Positions 1,568 through 33,070 of a stretch of DNA of 48,558 nucleotides are shown here, piece by piece. Source of the stretch: Saccoglossus kowalevskii (Eukaryota; Hemichordata; Enteropneusta; Harrimaniidae); the NCBI RefSeq assembly GCF_000003605.2, contig NW_003126566.1, positions 1 through 48,558 on the forward strand. Direction: 5' to 3'. Positions within the stretch are counted from its first letter, which is position 1; each line of letters starts with the position of its first letter. The translations under genes and the position numbers were made by a program. The notes under the pieces are model-generated. The model saw only the letters and a list, made by a program, of their open reading frames with translations. It did no database searches and had not been told where the DNA came from.

Positions 1568-2095
1568 TCTTATAAGCTGGTGTATGTACCAGTGATACAT
1601 TCCCACTCATCAACAGTTCATTTACAACTCACTCTTATAACCTGATGTATGTACCAGTGATACATTCCTATACTCATCAACAGTTCATTTACAACTCACT
1701 CTTATAAGCTGATTTATGTACCAGTGACACATTCCCACTCATCAACAGTTCATTTACAACTCACTCTTATAACCTGATGTATGTACCAGTGATACATTCC
1801 TATACTCATCAACAGTTCATTTACAACTCACTCTTATAAGCTGATTTATGTACCAGTGATACATTCCCACTCATCAACAGTTCATTTACAACTCACTCTT
1901 ATAACCTGATGTATGTACCAGTGATACATTCCTATACTCATCAACAGTTCATTTACAACTCACTCTTATAAGCTGATTTATGTACCAGTGATACATTCCC
2001 ACTCATCAACAGTTCATTTACAACTCACTCTTATAAGCTGGTGTATGTACCAGTGATACATTCCTATACTCATCAACAGTTCATTTACAACTCAC
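1568..2095. repeat. Class A 132-bp dimer higher-order repeat
   Basis: Four dimers follow each other, each a 65-bp unit with CCCACTC plus a 67-bp unit with CCTATACTC. Unit starts are 1,568, 1,633, 1,700, 1,765, 1,832, 1,897, 1,964 and 2,029. The 65-bp members are GCTGGTG or GCTGATTT. The 67-bp members are CCTGATG, except the last, which is GCTGGTG. The same alternation recurs through the class A domain. Confidence 0.85.
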
Positions 2096-2460
2096 TCTTA
2101 TAAGCTGATTTATGTACCAGTGATACATTCCTTTACTCATCAACAGTTCATTTACAACTCACTCTTATAAGCTGGTGTATGTACCAGTGATACATTCCCA
2201 CTCATCAACAGTTCATTTACAACTCACTCTTATAAGCTGATGTATGTACCAGTGATACATTCCTATACTCATCAACAGTTCATTTACAACTCACTCTTAT
2301 AAGCTGATTTATGTACCAGTGATACATTCCCACTCATCAACAGTTCATTTACAACTCACTCTTATAACCTGATGTATGTACCAGTGATACATTGCTATAC
2401 TCATCAACAGTTCATTTACAACTCACTCTTATAAGCTGATTTATGTACCAGTGATACATT

Positions 2461-4235
2461 CCCACTAATCAACAGTTCATTTACAACTCACTCTTATAAG
2501 CTGATGTATGTACCAGTGATACAATCCCACTCATCAACAGTTCATTTACAACTCACTCTTATAAGCTGATATATGTACCAGTGATACATTCCTTTACTCA
2601 TCAACAGTTCATTTACAACTCACTCTTATAAGCTGATGTATGTACCAGTGATACATTCCCACTCATCAACAGTTCATTTACAACTCACTGTTATAAGCTG
2701 ATGTACTTACCAGTGATACAATCCCACTCATCAACAGTTCATTTACAACTCACTCTTATAAGCTGATTTATGTACCAGTGATACATTCCTTTACTCATCA
2801 ACAGTTCATTTACAACTCACTCTTATAAGCTGGTGTATGTACCAGTGATACATTCCCACTCAACAACAGTTCATTTACAACTCACTCTTATAACCTGATG
2901 TATGTACCAGTGATACATTCCCACTCATCAACTGATCATTTACAACTCACTCTTATAAGCTGATGTATGTACCAGTGATACATTCCTATACTCATCAACA
3001 GTTCATTTACAACTCACTCTTATAAGCTGATTTATGTACCAGTGATACATTCCCACTCATCAACTGATCATTTACAACTCACTCTTATAACCTGTTGTAT
3101 GTACCAGTGATACATTCCCACTCATCAACAGATCATTTACAACTCACTCTTATAAGCTGATTTATGTACCAGTGATACATTCCTTTACTCATCAACAGTT
3201 CATTTACAACTCACTCTTATAACCTGATGTATGTACCAGTGATACATTCCCACTCATCAACAGTTCATTTACAACTCACTCTTATAAGCTGATTTATGTA
3301 CCAGTGATACATTCCCACTCATCAACAGTTCATTTACAACTCACTCTTATAACCTGATGTATGTACCAGTGATACATTCCTATACTCATCAACTGATCAT
3401 TTACAACTCACTCTTATAAGCTGATGTATGTACCAGTGATACATTCCCACTCATCAACAGTTCATTTACAACTCACTCTTATAAGCTGGTGTATGTACCA
3501 GTGATACATTCCTATACTCATCAACAGTTCATTTACAACTCACTCTTATAAGCTGATTTATGTACCAGTGATACATTCCCACTCATCAACAGTTCATTTA
3601 CAACTCACTCTTATAACCTGATGTATGTACCAGTGATACATTCCTATACTCATCAACAGTTCAATTACAACTCACTCTTATAAGCTGATTTATGTACCAG
3701 TGATACATTCCCACTCATCAACAGTTCATTTACAACTCACTCTTATAAGCTGATGTATGTACCAGTGATACAATCCCACTCATCAACAGTTCATTTACAA
3801 CTCACTCTTGTAAGCTGATGTATGTACCAGTGATACATTCCCACTCATCAACAGTTCATTTACAACTCACTCTTATAAGCTGATTTATGTACCAGTGATA
3901 CATTCCTTTACTCATCAACAGTTCATTTACAACTCACTCTTATAAGCTGGTGTATGTACCAGTGATACATTCCCACTCATCAACAGTTCATTTACAACTC
4001 ACTCTTATAAGCTGATGTATGTACCAGTGATACATTCCTATACTCATCAACAGTTCATTTACAACTCACTCTTATAAGCTGATTTATGTACCAGTGATAC
4101 ATTCCCACTCATCAACAGTTCATTTACAACTCACTCTTATAACCTGATGTATGTACCAGTGATACATTCCTATACTCATCAACAGTTCATTTACAACTCA
4201 CTCTTATAAGCTGATTTATGTACCAGTGATACATT
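2461..4235. repeat. Class A higher-order unit, ~1,775 bp spacing
   Basis: The rare word CCCACTAATC occurs at 2,461 and again at 4,236, followed in both places by the same order of monomers: AATCCC, CCTTTACTC, CCCACTC, GTTATAA with TGTACTT, CCTTTACTC, GCTGGTG with CTCAACAAC. The two following segments then separate, one continuing with CAACAGATC and the other with AACTGGTG. The same word and order appear a third time at 11,196. Confidence 0.75.
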
Positions 4236-4920
4236 CCCACTAATCAACAGTTCATTTACAACTCACTCTTATAAGCTGATGTATGTACCAGTGATACAAT
4301 CCCACTCATCAACAGTTCATTTACAACTCACTCTTATAAGCTGATTTATGTACCAGTGATACATTCCTTTACTCATCAACAGTTCATTTACAACTCACTC
4401 TTATAAGCTGATGTATGTACCAGTGATACATTCCCACTCATCAACAGTTCATTTACAACTCACTGTTATAAGCTGATGTACTTACCAGTGATACAATCCC
4501 ACTCATCAACAGTTCATTTACAACTCACCCTTATAAGCTGATTTATGTACCAGTGATACATTCCTTTACTCATCAACAGTTCATTTACAACTCACTCTTA
4601 TAAGCTGGTGTATGTACCAGTGATACATTCCCACTCAACAACAGTTCATTTACAACTCACTCTTATAACCTGATGTATGTACCAGTGATACATTCCCACT
4701 CATCAACTGATCATTTACAACTCACTCTTATAAGCTGATGTATGTACCAGTGATACATTCCTATACTCATCAACAGTTCATTTACAACTCACTCTTATAA
4801 GCTGATTTATGTACCAGTGATACATTCCCACTCATCAACTGATCATTTACAACTCACTCTTATAACCTGTTGTATGTACCAGTGATACATTCCCACTCAT
4901 CAACTGATCATTTACAACTC
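4236..4920. repeat. Class A segment copied at 11,196-11,860
   Basis: Offset 6,960 bp. The copies align without gaps except for one extra T near 11,281, then diverge in the CTGTTG monomer, where this copy has CAACTGATC and the other has CAACAGATC as at 3,130. The 11.2-kb copy therefore resembles the 4.2-kb segment at its start and the 3.1-kb segment at its end, a mosaic expected from unequal exchange. Confidence 0.7.
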
Positions 4921-6439
4921 ACTCTTATAAACTGGTGTATGTACCAGTGATACAATCCCACTCATCAACTGATCATTTACAACTCACTCTTATAACCTGA
5001 TGTATGTACCAGTGATACATGTCCACTCATCAACTGATCATTTACAACTCACTCTTATAAACTGATGTATGTTCCAGTGATACATTCCCACTCATCAACT
5101 GATCATTTAAAACTCACTCTTATAAACTGATGTATGTACCAGTGATACATTCCCACTCATCAACAGATCATTTACAACTCACTTTAATAGGCTGATGTAT
5201 GTACCAGTGATACATTCCCAATCATCAACTGATCATTTACAACTCACTCTTATAAGCAGATGTATGTACCAGTGATACATTCCTACTCATCAACAGTTCA
5301 TTTACAGCTCACTCTTATAAGCTGGTGTATGTACCAGTGATACATTCCCACTCATCAACAGTTCATTTACAACTCACTCTTATAACCTGATGTATGTACC
5401 AGTGATACATTCCTATACTCATCAACAGTTCATTTACAACTCACTCTTATAAGCTGATTTATGTACCAGTGATACATTCCCACTCATCAACAGTTCATTT
5501 ACAACTCACTGTTATAAACTGATGTACTTACCAGTGATACAATCCCACTCATCAACAGTTCATTTACAACTCACTCTTATAAGCTGATTTATGTACCAGT
5601 GATACATTCCTTTACTCATCAACAGTTCATTTACAACTCACTCTTATAAGCTGGTGTATGTACCAGTGATACATTCCCACTCATCAACAGTTCATTTACA
5701 ACTCACTCTTATAAGCTGATGTATGTACCAGTGATACATTCCTATACTCATCAACAGTTCATTTACAACTCACTCTTATAAGCTGATTTATGTACCAGTG
5801 ATACATTCCCACTCATCATCAGTTCATTTACAACTCACTCTTATAACCTGATGTATGTACCAGTGATACATTCCTATACTCATCAACAGTTCATTTACAA
5901 CTCACTCTTATAAGCTGATGTATGTACCAGTGATACAATCCCACTCATCAACAGTTCATTTACAACTCACTCTTATAAGCTGATTTATGTACCAGTGATA
6001 CATTCCTTTACTCATCAACAGTTCATTTACAACTCACTCTTATAAGCTGATGTATGTACCAGTGATACATTCCCACTCATCAACAGTTCATTTACAACTC
6101 ACTGTTATAAGCTGATGTACTTACCAGTGATACAATCCCACTCATCAACAGTTCATTTACAACTCACTCTTATAAGCTGATTTATGTACCAGTGATACAT
6201 TCCTTTACTCATCAACAGTTCATTTACAACTCACTCTTATAAGCTGGTGTATGTACCAGTGATACATTCCCACTCATCAACAGTTCATTTACAACTCACT
6301 CTTATAACCTGATGTATGTACCAGTGATACATTCCTATACTCATCAACAGTTCATTTACAACTCACTCTTATAAGCTGATTTATGTACCAGTGATACATT
6401 CCCACTCATCAACAGTTCATTTACAACTCACTCTTATAA

Positions 6440-6930
6440 CCTGATGTATGTACCAGTGATACATTCCTATACTCATCAACAGTTCATTTACAACTCACTC
6501 TTATAAGCTGATTTATGTACCAGTGATACATTCCCACTCATCAACAGTTCATTTACAACTCACTCTTATAAGCTGATGTATGTACCAGTGATACAATCCC
6601 ACTCATCAACAGTTCATTTACAACTCACTCTTATAAGCTGATTTATGTACCAGTGATACATTCCTTTACTCATCAACAGTTCATTTACAACTCACTCTTA
6701 TAAGCTGATGTATGTACCAGTGATACATTCCCACTCATCAACAGTTCATTTACAACTCACTGTTATAAGCTGATGTACTTACCAGTGATACAATCCCACT
6801 CATCAACAGTTCATTTACAACTCACTCTTATAAGCTGATTTATGTACCAGTGATACATTCCTTTACTCATCAACAGTTCATTTACAACTCACTCTTATAA
6901 GCTGGTGTATGTACCAGTGATACATTCCCA
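6440..6930. repeat. Class A segment copied at 8,540-9,030
   Basis: Offset exactly 2,100 bp; I see no difference through the segment. The copies part at 6,934 versus 9,034 (CTCAACAAC versus CTCATCAAC). Upstream, 8,528-8,530 has CCTTCTC where the other has CTCACTC. This marks a recent tandem duplication within the class A higher-order repeat. Confidence 0.75.
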
Positions 6931-9900
6931 CTCAACAACAGTTCATTTACAACTCACTCTTATAACCTGATGTATGTACCAGTGATACATTCCCTCTCAT
7001 CAACTGATCATTTACAACTCACTCTTATAAGCTGATGTATGTACCAGTGATACATTCCTATACTCATCAACAGTTCATTTACAACTCACTCTTATAAGCT
7101 GATTTATGTACCAGTGATACATTCCCACTCATCAACTGATCATTTACAACTCACTCTTATAACCTGTTGTATGTACCAGTGATACATTCCCACTCATCAA
7201 CTGATCATTTACAACTCACTCTTATAAACTGGTGTATGTACCAGTGATACAATCCCACTCATCAACTGATCATTTACAACTCACTCTTATAACCTGATGT
7301 ATGTACCAGTGATACATTCCCACTCATCAACTGATCATTTACAACTCACTCTTATAAACTGATGTATGTACCAGTGATACATTCCCACTCATCAACTGAT
7401 CATTTACAACTCACTCTTATAAACTGACGTATGTACCAGTGATACATTCCCACTCATCAACAGATCATTTACAACTCACTTTAATAGGCTGATGTATGTA
7501 CCAGTGATACATTCCCAATCATCAACTGATCATTTACAACTCACTCTTATAAGCAGATGTATGTACCAGTGATACATTCCTACTCATCAACAGTTCATTT
7601 ACAACTCACTCTTATAAGCTGGTGTATGTACCAGTGATACATTCCCACTCATCAACAGTTCATTTACAACTCACTCTTATAACCTGATGTATGTACCAGT
7701 GATACATTCCTATACTCATCAACTGATCATTTACAACTCACTCTTATAAGCTGATGTATGTACCAGTGATACATTCCCACTCATCAAGAGTTCATTTACA
7801 ACTCACTCTTATAACCTGATGTATGTACCAGTGATACATTCCTATACTCATCAACAGTTCATTTACAACTCACTCTTATAAGCTGGTGTATGTACCAGTG
7901 ATACATTCCCACTCATCAACAGTTCATTTACAACTCACTCTTATAACCTGATGTATGTACCAGTGATACATTCCTATACTCATCAACAGTTCATTTACAA
8001 CTCACTCTTATAAGCTGATTTATGTACCAGTGATACATTCCCACTCATCAACAGTTCATTTACAACTCACTCTTGTAACCTGATGTATGTACCAGTGATA
8101 CATTCCTATACTCATCAACAGTTCATTTACAACTCACTCTTATAAGCTGATTTATGTACCAGTGATACATTCCCACTCATCAACAGTTCATTTACAACTC
8201 ACTCTTATAAGCTGATGTATGTACCAGTGATACAATCCCACTCATCAACAGTTCATTTACAACTCACTCTTATAAGCTGATTTATGTACCAGTGATACAT
8301 TCCTTTACTCATCAACAGTTCATTTACAACTCACTCTTATAAGCTGATGTATGTACCAGTGATACATTCCCACTCATCAACAGTTCATTTACAACTCACT
8401 CTTATAACCTGATGTATGTACCAGTGATACATTCCTATACTCATCAACAGTTCATTTACAACTCACTCTTATAAGCTGATTTATGTACCAGTGATACATT
8501 CCCACTCATCAACAGTTCATTTACAACCTTCTCTTATAACCTGATGTATGTACCAGTGATACATTCCTATACTCATCAACAGTTCATTTACAACTCACTC
8601 TTATAAGCTGATTTATGTACCAGTGATACATTCCCACTCATCAACAGTTCATTTACAACTCACTCTTATAAGCTGATGTATGTACCAGTGATACAATCCC
8701 ACTCATCAACAGTTCATTTACAACTCACTCTTATAAGCTGATTTATGTACCAGTGATACATTCCTTTACTCATCAACAGTTCATTTACAACTCACTCTTA
8801 TAAGCTGATGTATGTACCAGTGATACATTCCCACTCATCAACAGTTCATTTACAACTCACTGTTATAAGCTGATGTACTTACCAGTGATACAATCCCACT
8901 CATCAACAGTTCATTTACAACTCACTCTTATAAGCTGATTTATGTACCAGTGATACATTCCTTTACTCATCAACAGTTCATTTACAACTCACTCTTATAA
9001 GCTGGTGTATGTACCAGTGATACATTCCCACTCATCAACAGTTCATTTACAACTCACTCTTATAACCTGATGTATGTACCAGTGATACATTCCTATACTC
9101 ATCAACAGTTCATTTACAACTCACTCTTATAAGCTGATTTATGTACCAGTGATACATTCCCACTCATCAACAGTTCATTTACAACTCACTCTTATAACCT
9201 GATGTATGTACCAGTGATACATTCCTATACTCATCAACAGTTCAATTACAACTCACCCTTATAAGCTGATTTATGTACCAGTGATACATTCCCACTCATC
9301 AACAGTTCTTTTACAACTCACTCTTATAACCTGATGTATGTACCAGTGATACATTCCTATACTCATCAACAGTTCATTTACAACTCACTCTTATAAGCTG
9401 ATTTATGTACCAGTGATACATTCCCACTCATCAACAGTTCATTTACAACTCACTCTTATAAGCTGATGTATGTACCAGTGATACAATCCCACTCATCAAC
9501 AGATCATTTACAACTCACTCTTATAAGCTGATTTATGTACCAGTGATACATTCCTTTACTCATCAACAGTTCATTTACAACTCACTCTTATAACCTGATG
9601 TATGTACCAGTGATACATTCCCACTCATCAACAGTTCATTTACAACTCACTCTTATAACCTGATGTATGTACCAGTGATACATTCCCACTCATCAACTGA
9701 TCATTTACAACTCACTCTTATAAACTGATGTATGTACCAGTGATACATTCCCACTCATCAACTGATCATTTACAACTCACTCTTATAAACTGATGTATGT
9801 ACCAGTGATACATTCCCACTCATCAACAGATCATTTACAACTCACTTTAATAGGCTGATGTATGTACCAGTGATACATTCCCAATCATCAACTGATCATT

Positions 9901-12900
9901 TACAACTCACTCTTATAAGCAGATGTATGTACCAGTGATACATTCCTACTCATCAACAGTTCATTTATAACTCACTCTTATAAGCTGGTGTATGTACCAG
10001 TGATACATTCCCACTCATCAAGAGTTCATTTACAACTCACTCTTATAACCTGATGTATGTACCAGTGATACATTCCTATACTCATCAACTGATCATTTAC
10101 AACTCACTCTTATAAGCTGATGTATGTACCAGTGATACATTCCCACTCATCAAGAGTTCATTTACAACTCACTCTTATAACCTGATGTATGTACCAGTGA
10201 TACATTCCTATACTCATCAACAGTTCATTTACAACTCACTCTTATAAGCTGGTGTATGTACCAGTGATACATTCCCACTCATCAACAGTTCATTTACAAC
10301 TCACTCTTATAACCTGATGTATGTACCAGTGATACATTCCTATACTCATCAACAGTTCATTTACAACTCACTCTTATAAGCTGATTTATGTACCAGTGAT
10401 ACATTCCCACTCATCAACAGTTCATTTACAACTCACTCTTATAACCTGATGTATGTACCAGTGATACATTCCTATACTCATCAACAGTTCAATTACAACT
10501 CACCCTTATAAGCTGATTTATGTACCAGTGATACATTCCCACTCATCAACAGTTCATTTACAACTCACTCTTATAAGCTGATGTATGTACCAGTGATACA
10601 ATCCCACTCATCAACAGTTCATTTACAACTCACTCTTGTAAGCTGATTTATGTACCAGTGATACATTCCTTTACTCATCAACAGTTCATTTACAACTCAC
10701 TCTTATAAGCTGATGTATGTACCAGTGATACATTCCCACTCATCAACAGTTCATTTACAACTCACTGTTATAAACTGATGTACTTACCAGTGATACAATC
10801 CCACTCATCAACAGTTCATTTACAACTCACTCTTATAAGCTGATTTATGTACCAGTGATACATTCCTTTACTCATCAACAGTTCATTTACAACTCACTCT
10901 TATAAGCTGGTGTATGTACCAGTGATACATTCCCACTCATCAACAGTTCATTTACAACTCACTCTTATAAGCTGATGTATGTACCAGTGATACATTCCTA
11001 TACTCATCAACAGTTCATTTACAACTCACTCTTATAAGCTGATTTATGTACCAGTGATACATTCCCACTCATCAACAGTTCATTTACAACTCACTCTTAT
11101 AACCTGATGTATGTACCAGTGATACATTCCTATACTCATCAACAGTTCATTTACAACTCACTCTTATAAGCTGATTTATGTACCAGTGATACATTCCCAC
11201 TAATCAACAGTTCATTTACAACTCACTCTTATAAGCTGATGTATGTACCAGTGATACAATCCCACTCATCAACAGTTCATTTTACAACTCACTCTTATAA
11301 GCTGATTTATGTACCAGTGATACATTCCTTTACTCATCAACAGTTCATTTACAACTCACTCTTATAAGCTGATGTATGTACCAGTGATACATTCCCACTC
11401 ATCAACAGTTCATTTACAACTCACTGTTATAAGCTGATGTACTTACCAGTGATACAATCCCACTCATCAACAGTTCATTTACAACTCACTCTTATAAGCT
11501 GATTTATGTACCAGTGATACATTCCTTTACTCATCAACAGTTCATTTACAACTCACTCTTATAAGCTGGTGTATGTACCAGTGATACATTCCCACTCAAC
11601 AACAGTTCATTTACAACTCACTCTTATAACCTGATGTATGTACCAGTGATACATTCCCACTCATCAACTGATCATTTACAACTCACTCTTATAAGCTGAT
11701 GTATGTACCAGTGATACATTCCTATACTCATCAACAGTTCATTTACAACTCACTCTTATAAGCTGATTTATGTACCAGTGATACATTCCCACTCATCAAC
11801 TGATCATTTACAACTCACTCTTATAACCTGTTGTATGTACCAGTGATACATTCCCACTCATCAACAGATCATTTACAACTCACTCTTATAAGCTGATTTA
11901 TGTACCAGTGATACATTCCTTTACTCATCAACAGTTCATTTACAACTCACTCTTATAACCTGATGTATGTACCAGTGATACATTCCCACTCATCAACAGT
12001 TCATTTACAACTCACTCTTATAACCTGATGTATGTACCAGTGATACATTCCTATACTCATCAACAGTTCATTTACAACTCACTCTTATAAACTGATGTAT
12101 GTACCAGTGATACATTCCCACTCATCAACAGTTCATTTACAACTCACTCTTATAAGCTGATGTATGTACCAGTGATACATTCCCACTCATCAACAGTTCA
12201 TTTACAACTCACTCTTATAAGCTGATTTATGTACCAGTGATACATTCCTTTACTCATCAACAGTTCATTTACAACTCACTCTTATAAGCTGATGTATGTA
12301 CCAGTGATACATTCCCACTCATCAACAGTTCATTTACAACTCACTCTTATAACCTGATGTATGTACCAGTGATACATTCCCACTCATCAACTGATCATTT
12401 ACAACTCACTCTTATAACCTGATGTATGTACCAGTGATACATTCCCACTCATCAACTGATCATTTACAACTCACTCTTATAAACTGATGTATGTACCAGT
12501 GATACAATCCCACTCATCAACTGATCATTTACAACTCACTCTTATAACCTGATGTATGTACCAGTGATACATTTCCACTCATCAACTGATCATTTACAAC
12601 TCACTCTTATAAACTGATGTATGTACCAGTGATACATTCCCACTCATCAACTGATCATTTACAACTCACTCTTATAAACTGATGTATGTACCAGTGATAC
12701 ATTCCCACTCATCAGCAGATCATTTACAACTCACATTAATAGGCTGATGTATGTACCAGTGATACATTCCCAATCATCAACTGATCATTTACAACTCACT
12801 CTTATAAGCAGATGTATGTACCAGTGATACATTCCTACTCATCAAAAGTTCATTTACAACTCACTCTTATAAGCTGGTGTATGTACCAGTGATACATTCC

Positions 12901-14480
12901 CACTCATCAACTGATCATTTACAACTCACTCTTATAACCTGATGTATGTACCAGTGATACATTCCTATACTCATCAACTGATCATTTACAACTCACTCTT
13001 ATAAGCTGATGTATGTACCAGTGATACATTCCCACTCATCAAGAGTTCATTTACAACTCACTCTTATAACCTGATGTATGTACCAGTGATACATTCCTAT
13101 ACTCATCAACAGTTCATTTACAACTCACTCTTATAAGCTGGTGTATGTACCAGTGATACATTCCCACTCATCAACAGTTCATTTACAACTCACTCTTATA
13201 ACCTGATGTATGTACCAGTGATACATTCCTATACTCATCAACAGTTCATTTACAACTCACTCTTATAAGCTGATTTATGTACCAGTGATACATTCCCACT
13301 CATCAACAGTTCATTTACAACTCACTCTTATAACCTGATGTATGTACCAGTGATACATTCCTATACTCATCAACAGTTCATTTACAACTCACTCTTATAA
13401 GCTGATTTATGTACCAGTGATACATTCCCACTCATCAACAGTTCATTTACAACTCACTCTTATAAGCTGATGTATGTACCAGTGATACAATCCCACTCAT
13501 CAACAGATCATTTACAACTCACTCTTATAAGCTGATTTATGTACCAGTGATACATTCCTTTACTCATCAACAGTTCATTTACAACTCACTCTTATAAGCT
13601 GATGTATGTACCAGTGATACATTCCCACTCATCAACAGATCATTTACAACTCACTCTTATAACCTGATGTATGTACCAGTGATACATTCCCACTCATCAA
13701 CTGATCATTTACAACTCACTCTTATAAACTGATGTATGTACCAGTGATACATTCCCACTCATCAACTGATCATTTACAACTCACTCTTATAAACTGATGT
13801 ATGTACCAGTGATACATTCCCACTCATCAACAGATCATTTACAACTCACTTTAATAGGCTGATGTATGTACCAGTGATACATTCCCAATCATCAACTGAT
13901 CATTTACAACTCACTCTTATAAGCAGATGTATGTACCAGTGATACATTCCTACTCATCAACAGTTCATTTACAACTCACTCTTATAAGCTGGTGTATGTA
14001 CCAGTGATACATTCCCACTCATCAACAGTTCATTTACAACTCACTCTTATAACCTGATGTATGTACCAGTGATACATTCCTATACTCATCAACTGATCAT
14101 TTACAACTCACTCTTATAAGCTGATGTATGTACCAGTGATACATACCCACTCATCAAGAGTTCATTTACAACTCACTCTTATAACCTGATGTATTGTCCA
14201 GTGATACATTCCTATACTCATCAACAGTTCATTTACAACTCACTCTTATAAGCTGGTGTATGTACCAGTGATACATTCCCACTCATCAACAGTTCATTTA
14301 CAACTCACTCTTATAACCTGATGTATGTACCAGTGATACATTCCTATACTCATCAACAGTTCATTTACAACTCACTCTTATAAGCTGATTTATGTACCAG
14401 TGATACATTCCCACTCATCAACAGTTCATTTACAACTCACTCTTATAACCTGATGTATGTACCAGTGATACATTCCTACT

Positions 14481-15130
14481 CATCAACAGTTCATTTACAA
14501 CTCACTCTTATAAGCTGATGTATGTACCAGTGATATAATCCCACTCATCAATTGATCATTTACAACTCACTCTTATAAGCTGATGTATGTATCAGTGATA
14601 CATTCCCACTCATCAACTGATCATTTACAACTCACTCTTATAAGCTGGTGTATGTACCAGTGATACATTCCCACTCATCAACAGTTCATTTACAACTCAC
14701 TCTTATAAGCTGATGTATGTACCAGTGATACAATCCCACTCATCAACTGATCATTTTCAACTCACTCTTATAAGCTGATGTATGTACCAGTGATACAATC
14801 CCACTCATCAACAGTTCATGTACAACTCACTCTTATAAGCTGATGTATGTACCAGTGATACATTCCCACTCATCAACTGATCATTTACAACTCACTCTTA
14901 TAAGCTGATGTATGTACCAGTGATACAATCCCACTCATCAACAGTTCATTTACAACTCACTCTTATAAGCTGATGTATGTACCAGTGATACAATCCCACT
15001 CATCAACTGATCATTTACAACTCACTCTTATAAGGTGATGTATGTACCAGTGATACATTCCTATACTCATCAACAGTTCATTTACAACTCACTCTTATAA
15101 GCTGATGTGTGTACCTGTGATACAATCCCA
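14481..15130. repeat. Class B block 2
   Basis: About ten class B monomers. From 14,592 to about 15,135 the sequence is the same as 17,217-17,760, including the private TAAGGTGATG, GTGTGTACCTGTG and ACTCTTCA variants. No gene-like content is seen. Confidence 0.8.
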
Positions 15131-15135
15131 CTCTT
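14592..15135. repeat. Direct repeat, left copy (~544 bp)
   Basis: Left member of a direct repeat whose right member is 17,217-17,760, offset 2,625 bp. I find no mismatch or indel between the members by eye. They bracket the class A island at 15,131-17,216. Such perfect flanking copies point to a recent duplication or a misassembly. Confidence 0.85.
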
Positions 15136-17216
15136 CACAGTTCATTTACAACTCACTCTTATAAGGCTGATGTATGTAACCAGTGATACAATTCCCACTC
15201 ATCAACAGTTCATTTACAACTCACTCTTATAAGCTGATTTATGTTACCAGTGATACATTCCTTTACTCATCAACAGTTCATTACAACTCACTCTTTATAA
15301 GCTGATGTATGTACCAGTGATACATTCCCCACTCATCAACAGTTCATTTACAACTCACTGTTATAAGCTGATGTACTTACCAGTGATACAATCCCACTCA
15401 TCAACAGTTCATTTACAACTCACTCTTATAAGCTGATTTATGTACCAGTGATACATTCCTTTACTCATCAACAGTTCATTTACAACTCACTCTTATAAGC
15501 TGGTGTATGTACCAGTGATACATTCCCACTCAACAACAGTTCATTTACAACTCACTCTTATAACCTGATGTATGTACCAGTGATACATTCCCACTCATCA
15601 ACTGATCATTTACAACTCACTCTTATAAGCTGATGTATGTACCAGTGATACATTCCTATACTCATCAACAGTTCATTTACAACTCACTCTTATAAGCTGA
15701 TTTATGTACCAGTGATACATTCCCACTCATCAACTGATCATTTACAACTCACTCTTATAACCTGTTGTATGTACCAGTGATACATTCCCACTCATCAACT
15801 GATCATTTACAACTCACTCTTATAAACTGGTGTATGTACCAGTGATACAATCCCACTCATCAACTGATCATTTACAACTCACTCTTATAACCTGATGTAT
15901 GTACCAGTGATACATGTCCACTCATCAACTGATCATTTACAACTCACTCTTATAAACTGATGTATGTTCCAGTGATACATTCCCACTCATCAACTGATCA
16001 TTTAAAACTCACTCTTATAAACTGATGTATGTACCAGTGACACATTCCCACTCATCAACAGATCATTTACAACTCACTTTAATAGGCTGATGTATGTACC
16101 AGTGATACATTCCCAATCATCAACTGATCATTTACAACTCACTCTTATAAGCAGATGTATGTACCAGTGATACATTCCTACTCATCAACAGTTCATTTAC
16201 CACTCACTCTTATAAGCTGGTGTATGTACCAGTGATACATTCCCACTCATCAACAGTTCATTTACAACTCACTCTTATAACCTGATGTATGTACCAGTGA
16301 TACATTCCTATACTCATCAACTGATCATTTACAACTCACTCTTATAAGCTGATGTATGTACCAGTGATACATTCCCACTCATCAAGAGTTCATTTACAAC
16401 TCACTCTTATAACCTGACGTATGTACCAGTGATACATTCCTATACTCATCAACAGTTCATTTACAACTCACTCTTATAAGCTGGTGTATGTACCAGTGAT
16501 ACATTCCCACTCATCAACAGTTCATTTACAACTCACTCTTATAACCTGATGTATGTACCAGTGATACATTCCTATACTCATCAACAGTTCATTTACAACT
16601 CACTCTTATAAGCTGATTTATGTACCAGTGATACATTCCCACTCATCAACAGTTCATTTACAACTCACTCTTATAACCTGATGTATGTACCAGTGATACA
16701 TTCCTATACTCATCAACAGTTCATTTACAACTCACTCTTATAAGCTGATTTATGTACCAGTGATACATTCCCACTCATCAACAGTTCATTTACAACTCAC
16801 TCTTATAAGCTGATGTATGTACCAGTGATACAATCCCACTCATCAACAGTTCATTTACAACTCACTCTTATAAGCTGATTTGTGTACCAGTGATACATTC
16901 CTTTACTCATCAACAGTTCATTTACAACTCACTCTTATAAGCTGATGTATGTACCAGTGATACATTCCCACTCATCAACAGTTCATTTACAACTGACCGT
17001 TATAAGCTGATGTACTTACCAGTGATACAATCCCACTCATCAACAGTTCATTTACAACTCACTCTTATAAGCTGATTTATGTACCAGTGATACATTCCTT
17101 TACTCATCAACAGTTCATTTACAACTCACTCTTATAAGCTGGTGTATGTACCAGTGATACATTCCCACTCAACAACAGTTCATTTACAACTCACTCTTAT
17201 AACCTGATGTATGTAC
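15131..17216. repeat. Class A island 1
   Basis: About 2.1 kb of class A monomers inside class B. Its first ~1.17 kb follow 4,236-5,400 at offset 10,895, sharing the rare CATGTCCAC, TATGTTCCAG and TTTAAAACTC variants. Its later part follows 7,700 onward at offset 8,598. The marker CCCAATC is at 16,112. The left edge has eight single-base indels (15,136-15,330) and the right edge one (GTACACAG near 17,216). Confidence 0.82.
15136..15330. other. Cluster of single-base indels at class B/A junction
   Basis: Relative to the parallel segment at 4,241-4,435, this 195-bp stretch has eight one-base changes of length: CTTCACAG (minus A, relative to 17,757), AAGGCTG (plus G), GTAACCAG (plus A), ACAATTCCC (plus one), TGTTACC (plus T), TTCATTACA (minus T), CTCTTTATAA (plus T) and TTCCCCAC (plus C). 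Several lie in short homopolymers, which is typical of low-coverage long-read consensus error. The remaining array has only isolated indels. Confidence 0.8.
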
Positions 17217-17760
17217 ACAGTGATACATTCCCACTCATCAACTGATCATTTACAACTCACTCTTATAAGCTGGTGTATGTACCAGTGATACATTCCCACT
17301 CATCAACAGTTCATTTACAACTCACTCTTATAAGCTGATGTATGTACCAGTGATACAATCCCACTCATCAACTGATCATTTTCAACTCACTCTTATAAGC
17401 TGATGTATGTACCAGTGATACAATCCCACTCATCAACAGTTCATGTACAACTCACTCTTATAAGCTGATGTATGTACCAGTGATACATTCCCACTCATCA
17501 ACTGATCATTTACAACTCACTCTTATAAGCTGATGTATGTACCAGTGATACAATCCCACTCATCAACAGTTCATTTACAACTCACTCTTATAAGCTGATG
17601 TATGTACCAGTGATACAATCCCACTCATCAACTGATCATTTACAACTCACTCTTATAAGGTGATGTATGTACCAGTGATACATTCCTATACTCATCAACA
17701 GTTCATTTACAACTCACTCTTATAAGCTGATGTGTGTACCTGTGATACAATCCCACTCTT
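17217..17760. repeat. Direct repeat, right copy (~544 bp)
   Basis: Right member of the direct repeat described for 14,592-15,135. After 17,760 the sequence runs on as ordinary class B, so this copy is the one with a natural continuation. Confidence 0.85.
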
Positions 17761-18010
17761 CAACAGTTCATTTACAACTCACTCTTATAAGCTGATGTGT
17801 GTACCAGTGATACAATCCCACTCATCAACAGTTCATTTACAACTCACTCTTATAAGCTGATGTATGTACCAGTGATACATTCCCACTCATCAACTGATCA
17901 TTTACAACTCACTCTTATAAGCTGATGTATGTACCAGTGATACAATTCCACTCATCAACTGATCATTTACAACTCACTCTTATAAGCTGATGTATGTACC
18001 AGTGATACAT

Positions 18011-18360: not shown

Positions 18361-19020
18361 TTTCTAACTCACTCTTATAAGCTGATGTATGTACCAGTGA
18401 TACATTCCCACTCATCAACAGTTCATTTACAACTCACTCTTATAAGCTGATGTATGTACCAATGATACAATCCCACTCATCAACTGATCATTTACAACTC
18501 ACTCTTATAAGCTGATGTATGTAGCAGTGATACATTCCACTCATCAACTGATCGTTTACAACTCACTCTTATAAGCTGATGTATGTACCAGTGATACATT
18601 CCCACTCATCAACAGTTCATTTACAACTCACTCTTATAAGCTGATGTATGTACCAGTGATACAATCCCACTCATCAACTGATCATTTACAACTCACTCTT
18701 ATAAGCTGATGTATGTACCAGTGATACATTCCCACTCATCAACTGATCATTTGCAACTCACTCTTATAAGCTGATGAATGTAACAGTGATACAATCCCAC
18801 TCACCAACTGATCATTTACAACTCACTCTTATAAGCTGATGTATGTAGCAGTGATACATTCCACTCATCAACGGATCGTTTACAACTCACTCTTATAAGC
18901 TGATGTATGTTCCAGTGATACATTCCCACTCATCAACAGTTCATTTACAACTCACTCTTATAAGCTGATGTATGTACCAGTGATACAATCCCACTCATCA
19001 ACTGATCATTTACAACTCAC

Positions 19021-19085
19021 TCTTATAAGCTGATGTATGTACCAGTGATACATTCCCACTCATCAACTGATCATTTACAACTCAC
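19021..19085. repeat. Reference class B monomer (65 bp)
   Basis: This copy equals the class B majority sequence by eye and serves as a coordinate reference. It is 65 bp with 24 G or C bases. Unit positions 2-9 are the perfect palindrome CTTATAAG, 13-18 and 28-33 are the arms ATGTAT and ATACAT, and 48-53 are the palindrome TGATCA. The variable words are at positions 9-16, 33-40 and 46-52. Because 65 is not a multiple of three, each successive copy is read in a different frame, and every frame soon meets TAA or TGA. The choice of unit start is arbitrary. Confidence 0.95.
19033..19053. other. Inverted-repeat dyad in the monomer (6-bp arms, 9-nt loop)
   Basis: ATGTAT and ATACAT are exact reverse complements separated by nine bases (GTACCAGTG), so each canonical monomer could form a small hairpin. 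The arms recur in most copies. The class A GCTGATTT variant breaks the third pair, and the AATCCC variant loses the outermost pair. Short dyads are common in centromeric satellites and are discussed as non-B DNA or protein-binding sites; a function here is not shown. Confidence 0.6.
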
Positions 19086-19604
19086 TCTTATAAGCGGATG
19101 TATGTACCAGTGATACATTCCCACTCATCAACTGATCATTTACAACTCACTCTTATAAGCTGATGTATGTACCAGTGATACAATCGCACTCATCAACTGA
19201 TCATTTACAACTCACTCTTATAAGCTGATGTATGTACCAGTGATACATTCCCACTCATCAACTGATCATTTACAACTCACTCTTATAAGCTGATGTATGT
19301 ACCAGTGATACATTCCCACTCATCAACAGTTCATTTACAACTCACTCTTATAAGCTGATGTATGTACCAGTGATATAATCCCACTCATCAATTGATCATT
19401 TACAACTCACTCTTATAAGCTGATGTATGTACCAGTGATACAATTCCACTCATCAACAGTTCATGTACAACTCACTCTTATAAGCTGATGTATGTACCAG
19501 TGATACATTCCCACTCATCAACTGATCATTTACAACTCACTCTTATAAGCTGATGTATGTACCAGTGATACAATTCCACTCATCAACAGTTCATTTACAA
19601 CTCA

Positions 19605-20060
19605 CTCTTATAAGCTGATGTATGTACCAGTGATACATTCCCACTCATCAACTGATCATTTACAACTCACTCTTATAAACTGATGTATGTACCAGTGATA
19701 CATTCCCACTCATCAACTGATCATTTACAACTCACTCTTATAAGCTGATGTATGTACCAGTGATACAATCCCACTCATCAACTGATCATTTACAACTCAC
19801 TCTTATAAGCTGATGTATGTAGCAGTGATACATTCCACTCATCAACTGATCGTTTACAACTCACTCTTACGAGCTGATGTATGTACCAGTGATACATTCC
19901 CACTCATCAACAGTTCATTTACAACTCACTCTTATAAGCTGATGTATGTACCAGTGATACATTCCTACTCATCAACAGTTCATTTACAACTCACTCTTAT
20001 AAGCTGATGTATGTACCAGTGATAGAATCCCACTCATCAATTGATCATTTCAACTCACTC
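19605..20060. repeat. Class B segment copied at 33,462-33,917
   Basis: Offset 13,857 bp. The pair shares CTTACGAGC, GATAGAATCC and TCATTTCAAC (one A missing). The last two at least look private to these segments, so the copies are recent despite the distance. Each contains a spurious 64-codon open reading frame (19,813 and 33,670). Confidence 0.8.
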
Positions 20061-23000
20061 TTATAAGCTGATGTATGTACCAGTGATACATTCCCACTCA
20101 TCAACTGATCATTTACAACTCACTCTTATAAGCTGATGTATGTACCAGTGATACATATCCACTCATCAACAGTTCATTTACAACTCACTCTTAAAAGCTG
20201 ATGTATGTACCAGTGATACATTCTCACTCATCAACTGATCATTTACAACTCACTCTTATAAGCTGAAGTATGTACCAGTGATACAATCCCACTCATCAAC
20301 AGTTCATGTACAACTCACTCTTATAAGCTGATGTATGTACCAGTGATACATTCCCAACTCATCAACAGTTCATTTACAACTCACTCTTATAAGCTGATGT
20401 ATGTACCAGTGATACATTCCCACTCATCAACAGTTCATTTACAACTCACTCTTATAAGCTGATGTATGTACCATTGATACAATCCCACTCATCAACTGAT
20501 CATTTACAACTCACTCTTATAAGCTGATGTATGTACCAGTGATACAATCCCACTCATCAACAGTTCATGTACAACTCACTCTTATAAGCTGATGTATGTA
20601 CCAGTGATACATTCCCACTCATCAACTGATCATTTACAACTCACTCTTATAAGCTGATGTATGTACCAGTGATACATTCCCACTCATCAACAGTTCATTT
20701 ACAACTCACTCTTATAAGCTGATGTATGTACCAGTGATACATTCCCACTCATCAACTGATCATTTACAACTCACTCTTATAAGCTGATGTATGTACCAGT
20801 GATACAATCCCACTCATCAACAGTTCATTTACAACTCACTCTTGTAAGCTGATGTATGTACCAGTGATACAATCCCACTCATCAATTGATCATTTACAAC
20901 TCACTCTTATAAGCTGATGTATGTACCAGTGATACATTCCCATACTCATCAACAGTTCATTTACAACTCACACTTACAAGCTAATGTATGTACCAGTGAT
21001 ACATTCCCACTCATCAACAGTTCATTTACAACTCACTCTTATAAGCTGATGTATGTACCAGTGATACATTCCCACTCATCAACAGTTCATTTACAACTCA
21101 CTCTTATAAGCTGATGTATGTACCAGTGATACATTCCCACTCATCAACAGTTCATTTACAACTCACTCTTATAAGCTGATGTATGTACCAGTGATACATT
21201 CCCACTCATCAACAGTTCATTTACAACTCACTCTTATAAGCTGATGTATGTACCACTGATATATTCCTACTCATCAACAGTTGATTTACAACTCACTGTT
21301 ATAAGCTGATGTATGCATCAGTGATACAATCCCACTCATCAATAGTTCATTTACAACTCACTCTTATTAGCTGATGTATGTACCAGTGATACATTCCCAC
21401 TCATCAACTGATCATTTACAACTCACTCTTATAAGCTGATGTATGTACCAGTGATACATTCCCACTCATCAACAGTTTATTTACAACTCACTCTTATAAG
21501 CTGATGTATGTACCAGTGATACAATCCCACTCATCAACTGATCATTTACAACTCACTCTTATAAGCTGATGTATGTACCAGTGATACATTCCCACTCATC
21601 AACTGATCATTTACAACTCACTCTTATAAGCTGATGTATGTACCAGTGATACATTCCCACTCATCAACTGATCATTTACAACTCACTCTTATAAGCTGAT
21701 GTATGTACCAGTGATACAATCGCACTCATCAACTGATCATTTACAACTCACTCTTATAAGCTGATGTATGTACCAGTGATACATTCCCACTCATCAACTG
21801 ATCATTTACAACTCACTCTTATAAGCTGATGTATGTACCAGTGATACATTCCTACTCATCAACAGTTCATTTACAACTCACTCTTATAAGCTGATGTATG
21901 TACCAGTGATATAATCCCACTCATCAATTGATCATTTACAACTCACTCTTATAAGCTGATGTATGTACCAGTGATACATTTCCACTCATCAACAGTTCAT
22001 GTACACTCACTCTTATAAGCTGATGTATGTACCAGTGATACATTCCCACTCATCAACAGTTCATTTACAACTCACTCTTATAAGCTGATGTATGTACCAG
22101 TGATACATTCCTACTCATCAACAGTTCATTTACAACTCACTCTTATAAGCTGATGTATGTACCAGTGATATAATCCCACTCATCAATTGATCATTTACAA
22201 CTCACTCTTATAAGCTGATGTATGTACCAGTGATACATTCCAACTCATCAACTGATCATTTACTACTCACTCTTATAAGCTGATGTATGTACCAGTGATA
22301 CATTCCCACTCATCAACAGTTCATTTACAACTCACTCTTATAAGCTGATGTATGTACCAGTGATACAATCCCACTCATCAACTGATCATTTACAACTCAC
22401 TCTTATAAGCTGATGTATGTACCAGTGATACAATCCCACTCATCAACAGTTCATGTACAACTCACTCTTATAAGCTGATGTATGTACCAGTGATACATTC
22501 CCACTCATCAACTGATCATTAACAACTCACTCGTATAAGCTGATGTATGTACCAGTGATACAATCCCACTCATCAACAGTTCATTTACAACTCACTCTTA
22601 TAAGCAGATGTATGTACCAGTGATACAATCCCACTCATCAATTGATCATTTACAACTCACTCTTATAAGCTGATGTATGTACCAGTGATACATTCCTATA
22701 CTCATCAACAGTTCATTTTACAACTCACTCTTACAAGCTGATGTATGTACCAGTGGATACAATCCCACTCATCAACTGATCATTTACAACTCACTCTTAT
22801 AAGCTGATGTATGTACCAGTGATACATTCCCACTCATCGACTGATCATTTGCAACTCACGCTTATAAGCTGATGTATGTACCAGTGATACAATCCCACTC
22901 ACCAACTGATCATTTACAACTCACTCTTATAAGCTGATGTATGTAGCAGTGATACATTCCACTCATCAACTGATCGTTTACAACTCACTCTTATAAGCTG

Positions 23001-23200
23001 ATGTATGTACCAGTGATACATTCCCACTCATCAACAGTTCATTTACAACTCACTCTTATAAGCTGATGTATGTACCAGTGATACAATCCCACTCATCAAC
23101 TGATCATTTACAACTCACTCTTATAAGCTGATGTATGTACCAGTGATACATTCCTATACTCATCAACTGATCATTTACAACTCACTCTTATAAGCTGATG

Positions 23201-24641
23201 TATGTTCCAGTGATACATTCCCACTCATCAACAGTTCATTTACAACTCACTCTTATAAGCTGATGTATGTACCAGTGATACAATCCCACTCATCAACTGA
23301 TCATTTACAAATCACTCTTATAAGCTGATGTATGTAGCAGTGATACACTCCACTCATCAACTAATCGTTTACAACTCACTCTTATAAGCTGATGTATGTA
23401 CCAGTGATACATTCCCACTCATCAACAGTTCATTTACAACTCACTCTTATAAGCTGATGTATGTACCAGTGATACAATCCCACTCATCAACTGATCATTT
23501 ACAACTCACTCTCATAAGCTGATGTATGTACCAGTGATACATTCCACTCATCAACTGATCATTTACAACTCACTCTTATAAACTGATGTATGTACCAATG
23601 ATACATTCCCACTCATCAACTGATCATTTACAACTCACTCTCATAAGCTGATGTATGTACCAGTGATACATTCCACTCATCAACTGATCATTTACAACTC
23701 ACTCTTATAAGCTGATGTATGTACCAGTGATACAATCCCACTCATCAACTGATCATTTACAACTCACTCTTATAAGCTGATGTATGTACCAGTGATACAA
23801 TCCCACTCATCAACTGATCATTTACAACTCACTCTTATAAGCTGATGTATGTACCAGTGATACATTCCCACTCATCAACTAATCATTTGCAACTCACTCT
23901 TATAAGCTGATGTATGTAACAGTGATACAATCCCACTCACCAACTGATCATTTACAACTCACTCTTATAAGCTGATGTATGTAGCAGTGATACATTCCAC
24001 TCATCAACGGATCGTTTACAACTCACTCTTATAAGCTGATGTATGTTCCAGTGATACATTCCCACTCATCAACAGTTCATTTACAACTCACTCTTATAAG
24101 CTGATGTATGTACCAGTGATACAATCCCACTCATCAACTGATCATTTACAAATCACTCTTATAAGCTGATGTATGTAGCAGTGATACACTCCACTCATCA
24201 ACTGATCGTTTACAACTCACTCTTATAAGCTGATGTATGTACCAGTGATACATTCCCACTCATCAACAGTTCATTTACAACTCACTCTTATAAGCTGATG
24301 TATGTACCAGTGATACAATCCCACTCATCAACTGATCATTTACAACTCACTCTCATAAGCTGATGTATGTACCAGTGATACATTCCACTCATCAACTGAT
24401 CATTTACAACTCACTCTTATAAACTGATGTATGTACCAATGATACATTCCCACTCATCAACTGATCATTTACAACTCACTCTCATAAGCTGATGTATGTA
24501 CCAGTGATACATTCCACTCATCAACTGATCATTTACAACTCACTCTTATAAGCTGATGTATGTACCAGTGATACAATCCCACTCATCAACTGATCATTTA
24601 CAACTCACTCTTATAAGCTGATGTATGTACCAGTGATACAT
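23201..24641. repeat. 841-bp tandem duplication in class B
   Basis: 23,201-23,800 matches 24,042-24,641 at offset 841 bp. Shared rare words are TATGTTCCAG, ACAAATCAC, ATACACTCC, CTCATAAG and CCAATGATAC. The offset is 13 monomers less four bases, accounted for by 64-bp copies. The right copy then enters the CCTATACTCG segment shared with 18,011. Confidence 0.8.
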
Positions 24642-25859
24642 TCCTATACTCGTCAGCAGTTCATTTACAACTCACACTTACAAGCTGATGTATGTACCAG
24701 TGATACATTCCTATACTCGTCAACAGTTCATTTACAACTCACTCTTATAACCTGATGTATGTACCAATGACACATTCCTATACTCGTCAACTGATCATTT
24801 ACAACTCACTCTTATAAGCTGATGTATGTACCAGTGATACATTCCCACTCATCAACTGATCATTTGCAACTCACTCTTATAAGCTGATGTATGTACCAGT
24901 GATACAATCCCACTCACTAACTGATCATTTACAACTCACTCTTATAAGCTGATGTATGTAGCAGTGATACATTCCACTCATCAACTGATCGTTTACAACT
25001 CACTCTTATAAGCTGATGTATGTACCAGTGATACATTCCCACTCATCAACAGTTCATTTACAACTCACTCTTATAAGCTGATGTATGTACCAGTGATACA
25101 ATCCCACTCATCAACTGATCATTTACAACTCACTCTTATAAGCTGATGTATGTACCAGTGATACATTCCCACTCATCAACAGTTCATTTACAACTCACTC
25201 TTATAAGCTGATGTATGTACCAGTGATACAATCCCACTCATCAACTGATCATTTACAACTCACTCTTATAAGCTGATGTATGTACCAGTGATACATTCCC
25301 ACTCATCGACTGATCATTTGCAACTCACGCTTATAAGCTGATGTATGTACCAGTGATACAATCCCACTCACCAACTGATCATTTACAACTCACTCTTATA
25401 AGCTGATGTATGTAGCAGTGATACATTCCACTCATCAACTGATCGTTTACAACTCACTCTTATAAGCTGATGTATGTACCAGTGATACATTCCCACTCAT
25501 CAACAGTTCATTTACAACTCACTCTTATAAGCTGATGTATGTACCAGTGATACAATCCCACTCATCAACTGATCATTTACAACTCACTCTTATAAGCTGA
25601 TGTATGTAGCAGTGATACATTCCACTCATCAACTGATCGTTTACAACTCACTCTTATAAGCTGATGTATGTACCAGTGATACATTCCCACTCATCAACAG
25701 TTCATTTACAACTCACTCTTATAAGCTGATGTATGTACCAGTGATACAATCCCACTCATCAACTGATCATTTACAACTCACTCTTATAAGCTGATGTATG
25801 TACCAGTGATACTATTCCCACTCATCGACTGATCATTTGCAACTCACTCTTATAAGCTG

Positions 25860-27764
25860 ATGTATGTACCAGTGATACATTCCCACTCATCAACTGATCA
25901 TTTACAACTCACTCTTATAAGCTGATGTATGTACCAGTGATACATTCCCACTCATCAACTGATCATTTACAACTCACTCTTATAAGCTGATGTATGTACC
26001 AGTGATACAATCCCACTCATCAACTGATCATTTACAACTCACTCTTATAAGCTGATGTATGTAGCAGTGATACATTCCACTCATCAACTGATCGTTTACA
26101 ACTCACTCTTACAAGCTGATGTATGTACCAGTGATACATTCCCACTCATCAACAGTTCATTTACAACTCACTCTTATAAGCTGATGTATGTACCAGTGAT
26201 ACATTCCTACTCATCAACAGTTCATTTACAACTCACTCTTATAAGCTGATGTATGTACCAGTGATAGAATCCCACTCATCAATAGATCATTTACAACTCA
26301 CTCTTATAAGCTGATGTATGTACCAGTGATACATTCCCACTCATCAACTGATCATTTACAACTCACTCTTATAAGCTGATGTATGTACCAGTGATACATT
26401 CACACTCATCAACAGTTCATTTACAACTCACTCTTATAAGCTGATGTATGTACCAGTGATACATTCCCACTCATCAACTGATCATTTACAACTCACTCTT
26501 ATAAGCTGATGTATGTACCAGTGATACAATCCCACTCATCAACAGTTCATTTACAACTCACTCTAATAGGCTGATGTATGTACCAGTGATACATTCCCAC
26601 TCATCAACTGATCATTTACAACTCACTCTTATAAGCTGATGTATGTACCAGTGATACATTCCTACTCATCAACAGTTCATTTACAACTCACTCTTATAAG
26701 CTGATGTATGTACCAGTGATACATTCCCACTCATCAACTGATCATTTACAACTCACTCTTATAAGCTGATGTATGTACCAGTGATACATTCCCACTCATC
26801 AACAGTTCATTTACAACTCACTCTTATAAGCTGATGTATGTACCAGTGATATAATCCCACTCATCAATTGATCATTTACAACTCACTCTTATAAGCTGAT
26901 GTATGTACCAGTGATACAATCCCACTCATCAACAGTTCATGTACAACCCACTCTTATAAGCTGATGTATGTACCAGTGATATATTCCCACTCATCAACTG
27001 ATCATTTACAACTCACTCTTATAAGCTGATGTATGTACCAGTGATACAATTCCACTCATCAACAGTTCATTTACAACTCACTCTTATAAGCTGATGTATG
27101 TACCAGTGATACATTCCCACTCATCAACTGATCATTTACAACTCACTCTTATAAACTGATGTATGTACCAGTGATACATTCCCACTCATCAACTGATCAT
27201 TTACAACTCACTCTTATAAGCTGATGTATGTACCAGTGATACAATCCCACTCATCAACTGATCATTTACAACTCACTCTTATAAGCTGATGTATGTAGCA
27301 GTGATACATTCCACTCATCAACTGATCGTTTACAACTCACTCTTACAAGCTGATGTATGTACCAGTGATACATTCCCACTCATCAACAGTTCATTTACAA
27401 CTCACTCTTATAAGCTGATGTATGTACCAGTGATACATTCCTACTCATCAACAGTTCATTTACAACTCACTCTTATAAGCTGATGTATGTACCAGTGATA
27501 GAATCCCACTCATCAATTGATCATTTACAACTCACTCTTATAAGCTGATGTATGTACCAGTGATACATTCCCACTCATCAACTGATCATTTACAACTCAC
27601 TCTTATAAGCTGATGTATGTACCAGTGATACATTCCCACTCATCAACAGTTCATTTACAACTCACTCTTATAAGCTGATGTATGTACCAGTGATACATTC
27701 CCACTCATCAACTGATCATTTACAACTCACTCTTATAAGCTGATGTATGTACCAGTGATACAAT
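25860..27764. repeat. 1,234-bp spaced duplication in class B
   Basis: About 25,860-26,530 matches 27,094-27,764 at offset 1,234 bp (19 monomers less one base). Both contain GTAGCAGTG with GATCGTTTAC, TTACAAG, TCCTACTC and GATAGAATCC in the same order, and both yield the same spurious 64-codon reading frame. Scattered mismatches show it is older than the 544-bp direct repeat. Confidence 0.7.
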
Positions 27765-29130
27765 CCCACTCATCAACTGATCATTTACAACTCACTCTTA
27801 TAAGCTGATGTATGTACCAGTGATACATTCCTATACTCATCAACAGTTCATTTACAACTCACTCTTATAAGCTGATGTGTGTACCAGTGATACAATCCCA
27901 CTCATCAACAGTTCATTTACAACTCACTCTTATAAGCTGATGTATGTACCAGTGATACAATCCCACTCATCAACTGATCATTTACAACTCACTCTTATAA
28001 GCTGATGTATGTAGCAGTGATACATTCCACTCATCAACTGATCGTTTACATCTCACTCTTATAAGCTGATGTATGTACCAGTGATACATTCCCACTCATC
28101 AACAGTTCATTTACAACTCACTCTTATAAGCTGATGTATGTACCAGTGATACATTCCTACTCATCAACAGTTCATTTACAACTCACTCTTATAAGCTGAT
28201 GTATGTACCAGTGATACAATCCCACTCATCAACTGATCATTTACAACTCACTCTTATAAGCTGATGTATGTACCAGTGATACAATCCCACTCATCAACAG
28301 TTCATGTACAACTCACTCTTATAAGCTGATGTATGTACCAGTGATACATTCCCACTCATCAACTGATCATTTACAACTCACTCTTATAAGCTGATGTATG
28401 AACCAGTGATACAATCCCACTCATCAACAGTTCATTTACAACTCACTCTTATAAGCAGATGTATGTACCAGTGATACAATCCCACTCATCAATTGATCAT
28501 TTACAACTCACTCTTATAAGCTGATGTATGTACCAGTGATACATTCCTATACTCATCAACAGTTCATTTACAACTCACACTTACAAGCTGATGTATGTAC
28601 CAGTGATACATTCCCACTCATCAACTGATCATTTACAACTCACTCTTATAAGCTGATGTATGTACCAGTGATACATTCCCACTCATCAACAGTTCACTTG
28701 CAACTCACTCTTATAAGCTGATGTATGTACCAGTGATACATTCCCACTCATCAACAGTTCATTTACAACTCACTCTTATAAGCTGATGTATGTACCAGTG
28801 ATACAATCCCACTCCTCAACTGATCATTTACAACTCACTCTTATAAGCTGATGTATGTACCAGTGATACATTCCACTCATCAACTGATCATTTACAACTC
28901 ACTCTTATAAGCTGATGTATGTACCAGTGATACATTCCACTCATCAACTGATCATTTACAACTCACTCTTATAAGCTGATGTATGTACCAGTGATACATT
29001 CCCACTCATCAACTGATCATTTACAACTCACTCTTATAAGCTGATGTATGTACCAGTGATACAATCCTATACTCATCAACTGATCATTTACAACTCACTC
29101 TTATAAGCTGATGTATGTACCAGTGATACA

Positions 29131-29910
29131 TTCCTACTCATCAACAGTTAATTTACAACTCACTCTTATAAGCTGATGTATGTACCAGTGATACATTCCC
29201 ACTCATCAACTGATCATTTACAACTCACTCTTATAAGCTGATGTATGTACCAGTGATACATTCCCACTCATCAACAGTTCATTTACAACTCACTCTTATA
29301 AGCTGATGTATGTACCAGTGATATAATCCCACTCATCAATTGATCATTTACAACTCACTCTTATAAGCTGATGTATGTACCAGTGATACATTCCAACTCA
29401 TCAACTGATCATTTACAACTCACTCTTATAAACTGATGTATGTACCAGTGATACATTCCCACTCATCAACTGATCATTTACAACTCACTCTTATAAGCTG
29501 ATGTATGTACCAGTGATACATTCCCACTCATCAACTGATCATTTACAACTCACTCTTATAAGCTGATGTATGTACCAGTGATACAATCCCACTCATCAAC
29601 TGATCATTTACAACTCACTCTTATAAGCTGATGTATGTACCAGTGATACATTCCTACTCATCAACAGTTAATTTACAACTCACTCTTATAAGCTGATGTA
29701 TGTACCAGTGATACATTCCCACTCATCAACTGATCATTTACAACTCACTCTTATAAGCTGATGTATGTACCAGTGATACATTCCCACTCATCAACAGTTC
29801 ATTTACAACTCACTCTTATAAGCTGATGTATGTACCAGTGATATAATCCCACTCATCAATTGATCATTTACAACTCACTCTTATAAGCTGATGTATGTAC
29901 CAGTGATACA
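29131..29910. repeat. 520-bp (8-mer) tandem duplication
   Basis: TCCTACTC followed by CAGTTAATTTAC occurs at 29,131 and 29,651, exactly 520 bp or eight monomers apart. The following monomers agree up to GATATAATCCC and AATTGATC, then diverge near 29,910. Confidence 0.75.
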
Positions 29911-32900: not shown

Positions 32901-33070
32901 TGATACATTCCCACTCATCAACTGATCATTTACAACTCACTCTTATAAGCTGATGTATGTACCAGTGATACAATCCCACTCATCAATTGATCATTTACAA
33001 CTCACTCTTATAAGCTGATGTATGTACCAGTGATAGAATCCCACTCATCAATTGATCATTTACAACTCAC

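Follow-up and report, generated by a model that had tools for sequence, protein, structure and literature searches.

Was the block of class A satellite that interrupts class B satellite at positions 15,137-17,216 of contig NW_003126566.1 from the hemichordate Saccoglossus kowalevskii placed there by a cellular rearrangement, or by the assembler? The question arises because the same 545-bp class B stretch is written on both sides of this block, hereafter the island. The window, meaning the whole 48,558-nucleotide stretch that was analysed, is one contig of a 572-Mb assembly of 4,830 contigs and is satellite over its full length. Judged from its sequence, the island is probably an assembly mis-join inside the satellite contig, with a probability of roughly 0.75. 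An exact repeat, the coincidence of that repeat with both blemished edges of the island, and a burst of run-length insertions and deletions (indels) are observed; the likely meaning of these features is that one class B copy and the position of the island are false, and that the burst is read error. A mis-join is favoured over a template switch because one-base run-length indels occur in a burst that begins at the left join, whereas a real rearrangement appears unlikely on the same sequence.

The proposed sequence of events is as follows. Two assembled class B ends sharing a 545-bp overlap would have been left unmerged, and a class A piece, the first ~190 bp of which would be unpolished, low-support read sequence, would have been put between them. 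The outcome would be a class B stretch written twice and an apparent class A island. If the join is false, the class order, array length and inferred higher-order structure of the contig are unreliable, and one-base run-length indels clustered where one subfamily gives way to another may serve as a cheap, read-free flag for false joins. If the join is real, the contig preserves a template-switch event in a satellite array together with the mutational scar that it left.

An exact class B repeat around a class A block

The satellite array and the two copies of the repeat are delimited as follows.

1-48,558, forward strand: 65-bp satellite array of about 745 head-to-tail monomers (Tandem Repeats Finder periods of 65 and 195; monomer decomposition)
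14,593-15,137, forward strand: left copy of the class B direct repeat (exact match to 17,218-17,762; the anomalous indel nearest to it, at 15,136, sets the right bound)
17,218-17,762, forward strand: right copy of the class B direct repeat (exact match to 14,593-15,137)

Classes were painted with 33-mers taken from 1,000-14,000 (class A) and 18,400-37,000 (class B). Words confined to class A run to about 14,446 and those confined to class B begin at about 14,504; class A words return in the island, and class B is seen again within a few hundred bases. The classes are not pure, since an A-only patch at 14,621-14,648, along with its copy, sits inside the ‘B’ repeat.

The two copies are identical at 545 of 545 bases at an offset of 2,625, and some 2.1 kb of 65-bp class A satellite separates them. 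An earlier sequence-only reading of this DNA had described a perfect class B repeat of about 544 bp flanking a class A island, and its exactness is borne out over 545 bp, while the coordinates given for it (14,592-15,135 and 17,217-17,760) were off by one or two bases. At the left end of the repeat, the comparison passes from zero difference to background (7 mismatches and 1 gap) within one 100-base bin, making this end sharp. The copies form a close pair, with a window-wide count of exactly two at 56 of their 515 31-mer positions; among the matches listed, the best relative apart from the pair itself is 98% identical. The length of the repeat was rejected as evidence by itself. The window has seven longer exact direct repeats (936, 716, 691, 616, 613, 609 and 581 bp), leaving this one eighth by length, and 4.0% of 545-mers occur more than once in the window, so a repeat of 545 bp is ordinary in itself.

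Simple tandem duplication was also considered as the origin of the pair and rejected. Over the 600 bp to the left of each class B copy, identity is 93.2%, which is no better than for another class A stretch that was tried (94.5% over 566 columns), and the 7 mismatches and 1 gap noted above already fall in the bin holding the left end of the repeat.

The blemished edges of the island

Between the two class B copies, three further features are distinguished.

15,136-15,327, forward strand: noisy stretch with eight one-base run-length changes, otherwise equal to a class A copy (indel list; tile comparison; alignment to 4,247-4,450)
15,328-17,216, forward strand: clean part of the class A island (exact runs 15,328-15,799, of 472 bp, and 15,425-16,040, of 616 bp, in common with the class A array of the first 14 kb)
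17,217, forward strand: extra A, a singleton allele, at the right join (TAC-A-CAG; ATGTACACAGTG occurs nowhere else in the window)

When aligned with class A at 4,247-4,450, the sequence from 15,137 to 15,345 displays seven indels (six one-base insertions and one deletion) and no substitutions, and each of these indels makes a run of one to three identical bases longer or shorter by one. Together with a lost A at 15,136 they amount to eight changes, among which the extra T near 15,192 is a non-singleton allele. Singleton indels, defined as alleles occurring once in the window in a wrap-around alignment to the monomer, number 29, and seven of them lie inside the 192 bp of 15,136-15,327; the maximum reached in 100,000 random placements was five. 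A comparison of 1,009 overlapping 192-bp tiles with their best-scoring matches elsewhere in the window, including one tile added on purpose at 15,136, leads to the same stretch: 917 tiles are gap-free, and all six with four or more gaps overlap 15,136-15,327. Four tiles have three gaps, of which one overlaps the burst, one covers the right edge of the island and two lie elsewhere (28,897 and 45,217). Summed over these tiles, differences across the array are mostly substitutions (1,234 mismatches against 161 gaps), in contrast to the ratio of seven indels to no substitutions in the burst (Fisher p 3e-7, a rough value, because overlapping tiles were used and the noisy ones were counted in the totals).

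Long-read platforms have an error profile rich in one-base insertions. The burst looks like raw or thinly corrected long read, and 15,136-15,327 is probably an unpolished read end at the join, where one-base indels, presumably errors, are in excess. Leaving the noise aside, the 65-bp register is maintained across the left edge, although any monomer join, whether cellular or made by software, can look so. The right join is likewise in register except for the one added base of the extra A. The right class switch can be placed only within 17,217-17,272, and no finer, because this interval matches class A too, apart from the extra A. The 545-bp repeat stops no more than 2 bp from the anomaly at 15,136 and, at its other end, at the extra A at 17,217. 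When the eight longest exact repeats are compared for net singleton indels lying 3 bp or less from a boundary, this is the only one to have them on both sides; the repeat that starts at 37,696 has one on a single side.

The sequence-only reading had noted one-base anomalies at both edges, which is accurate for the single extra A on the right and an understatement for the 192-bp burst on the left. It had also offered two explanations, and these fare differently: insertion of a class A piece by the assembler is favoured by the burst at the left join, while a break-induced template switch explains the geometry well and the burst poorly. The geometry fits both overlapping ends with a filler and a template switch with upstream re-entry and, since both give the same arrangement, it does not decide between them alone.

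In the case of break-induced replication (BIR) with a template switch, synthesis would leave class B at 15,137, copy about 2.1 kb of class A in register and re-invade class B 545 bp upstream, thereby duplicating 545 bp, with the indels left by error-prone synthesis. Template switching of this kind in satellite arrays would likewise give class B, then class A, then class B from an upstream point. The fit to the geometry is exact, the left edge being in register bar the noise and the right edge bar the extra A, and the frameshift rate during BIR in yeast is reported to be raised by up to 2,800-fold (PMC3039667). However, one-base indels at about 4% over 192 bp with no substitutions would stand far above the BIR rate estimated from that fold change and a base rate, and an indel every 24-30 bp within about 200 bp at a single edge would be hard to reach. 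Moreover, the other ~1.9 kb of the island would be a product of the same synthesis, yet bears no such burst. In density, type and confinement to one edge, these indels resemble read error rather than the outcome of BIR, which appears improbable as the source of the island.

For an assembly mis-join, there are described precedents. False duplication of overlapping sequence at contig boundaries is treated in a passage of Rhie et al. (2021; PMC8081667), and false duplicates joined by wrong gap filling in a passage of Ko et al. (2022; PMC9516828). As in the false homotype duplications of the former passage, where sequencing errors are one cause, the sequence here is present twice with overlapping ends left unmerged; unlike those duplications as the passage presents them, the copies here are 545 bp long and stand 2.1 kb of class A apart, without any run of N. 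The present case appears nearer to the falsely connected, gap-filled duplicates of the latter passage. The near-identical copies bounded by joins that a mis-join implies are found here, without a single difference.

The ends of the contig were also counted in favour of a mis-join. Both are exact interior copies, with 1-465 equal to 36,456-36,920 (465 bp) and 48,049-48,558 equal to 27,002-27,511 (510 bp), on the same length scale as the 545-bp overlap; repeated words make up 7.4% of 465-mers and 5.2% of 510-mers in the window. The assembler may have stopped in an unresolved repeat, perhaps leaving unresolved overlaps of about half a kb at both ends.

A second class A island

A further class A block in class B surroundings lies in the second half of the window.

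37,015-37,647, forward strand: class B flank left of the second island (matches 40,141-40,773 at an offset of 3,126, with 10 mismatches in 633 positions and the last 363 exact)
37,648-40,140, forward strand: second class A island, outer limits (class painting, indel list and alignment; A-only words from about 37,712 to 39,978)
40,141-40,773, forward strand: class B flank right of the second island (the joined flanks match 46,011-47,316)

The flanks of the second island, of about 600 bp, are 98% identical, and their joined sequence has an uninterrupted relative at 46,011-47,316 (1,306 bp aligned without a gap, with 17 mismatches). Unlike that of the first island, the flank match does not end sharply on the left, passing through 1, 4, 2 and then 7 mismatches per 100 bases. 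Singleton insertions are found at the left edge at 37,648 and 37,694, and the indel list of the window holds no singleton near the right edge. The divergence of these flanks speaks against plain false duplication of one locus at this site, and is compatible with real mosaics or with a join of two haplotypes. For the first island, this second arrangement of B, A and B with a repeated flank of about 600 bp and an uninterrupted relative is a point in favour of BIR.

The edges of the two islands hold a large share of the singleton indels. Dropping those with an opposite indel within 6 bases leaves 17 of the 29, and ten of these 17 lie at island edges (seven in the burst, one at 17,217 and two at the second island). 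If the burst is taken as a single event, 4 of 11 are within 50 bp of the four edges, a number that none of 200,000 random placements reached, and when the pair at 37,648 and 37,694 is merged as well, 3 of 10 events are near edges, a figure reached in 6 of 200,000 placements; all these values are descriptive, the edges having been picked after the data were seen.

This placement bears on a different kind of real rearrangement, in which ordinary unequal exchange or gene conversion would have made the island, the burst being a separate, local failure of consensus polishing. Satellite arrays that are mosaics of subfamilies are shaped by unequal exchange, and the array described here is like them in its 65-bp monomers, its subfamily blocks and its many long exact repeats. 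Segmental exchange all along the array is indicated by the many different distances that separate its long exact direct repeats, and both another island and other class borders are present. The blemished edges of the islands are the only difference seen from such arrays, but a separate polishing failure would not be expected to fall on edges, as do 4 of the 11 events. An origin of this kind seems very doubtful.

A third possibility is that both islands are real and were made by a recurrent route, in which class B jumps to class A and returns some 0.5-0.6 kb upstream, the indels at the left edges (15,136-15,327, and 37,648 and 37,694) being scars of error-prone synthesis. This would be a long shot, though if true the array would preserve template-switch repair in satellite DNA in a form that can be read.

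Several observations weigh against an assembly mis-join at the first island. The second island, with its diverged flanks (10 of 633), whose match fades gradually on the left, suggests that mosaics of B, A and B may be natural in this array. Noise affects only some 190 bp at the start of the island, leaving about 1.9 kb clean. The closest full-length match to the island (15,137-17,216) is class A at 6,544-8,620, at 98.0% identity; by this comparison the clean part does not simply reproduce a single assembled class A piece, and would therefore be real satellite DNA from somewhere. Two of the three-gap tiles (those at 28,897 and 45,217) are away from any island edge. The density of window-unique 21-mers fails to flag the burst, which at 0.575 (15,101) is matched by 0.57 at 21,201, and this measure was rejected as a flag. 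Finally, the assembly gap of a false homotype duplication is absent between the copies, the window containing 0 N, although a connection by wrong gap filling, as described by Ko et al. (2022; PMC9516828), need not show N.

The contig and its satellite array

No non-satellite flank able to anchor the contig was seen in the window with Tandem Repeats Finder. Elsewhere in the assembly, a COX1 gene carries 7 in-frame TGA codons, indicating a mitochondrion of animal type. A 37-base core of the monomer has 352 exact matches genome-wide and 352 in the window, and all exact copies of this core are therefore in this contig. The DNA searches of the assembly scored the best candidates only and are no census, the rows from the contig itself all starting at position 39,021 at least; among the matches listed outside this contig there is only a 68-bp match in contig C4447. 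This lone monomer-like stretch (2,313-2,380) is 82% identical, lies outside any tandem array found and is possibly an isolated unit.

None of the reverse-complement 25-mers tested for inverted repeats is present in the window. The interval 14,400-15,400 gave no match in plasmid and phage collections (blastn, distant setting), and a literature search for 65-bp satellite DNA in an echinoderm found nothing.

The longest exact direct repeat in the window pairs 40,411-41,346 with 46,381-47,316 (936 bp, 5,970 bp apart). A truncated monomer, with 26 bases missing in the alignment, recurs at a constant position in three related class B stretches (37,493-37,508, 40,618-40,634 and 46,588-46,604), and is a useful landmark for higher-order structure.
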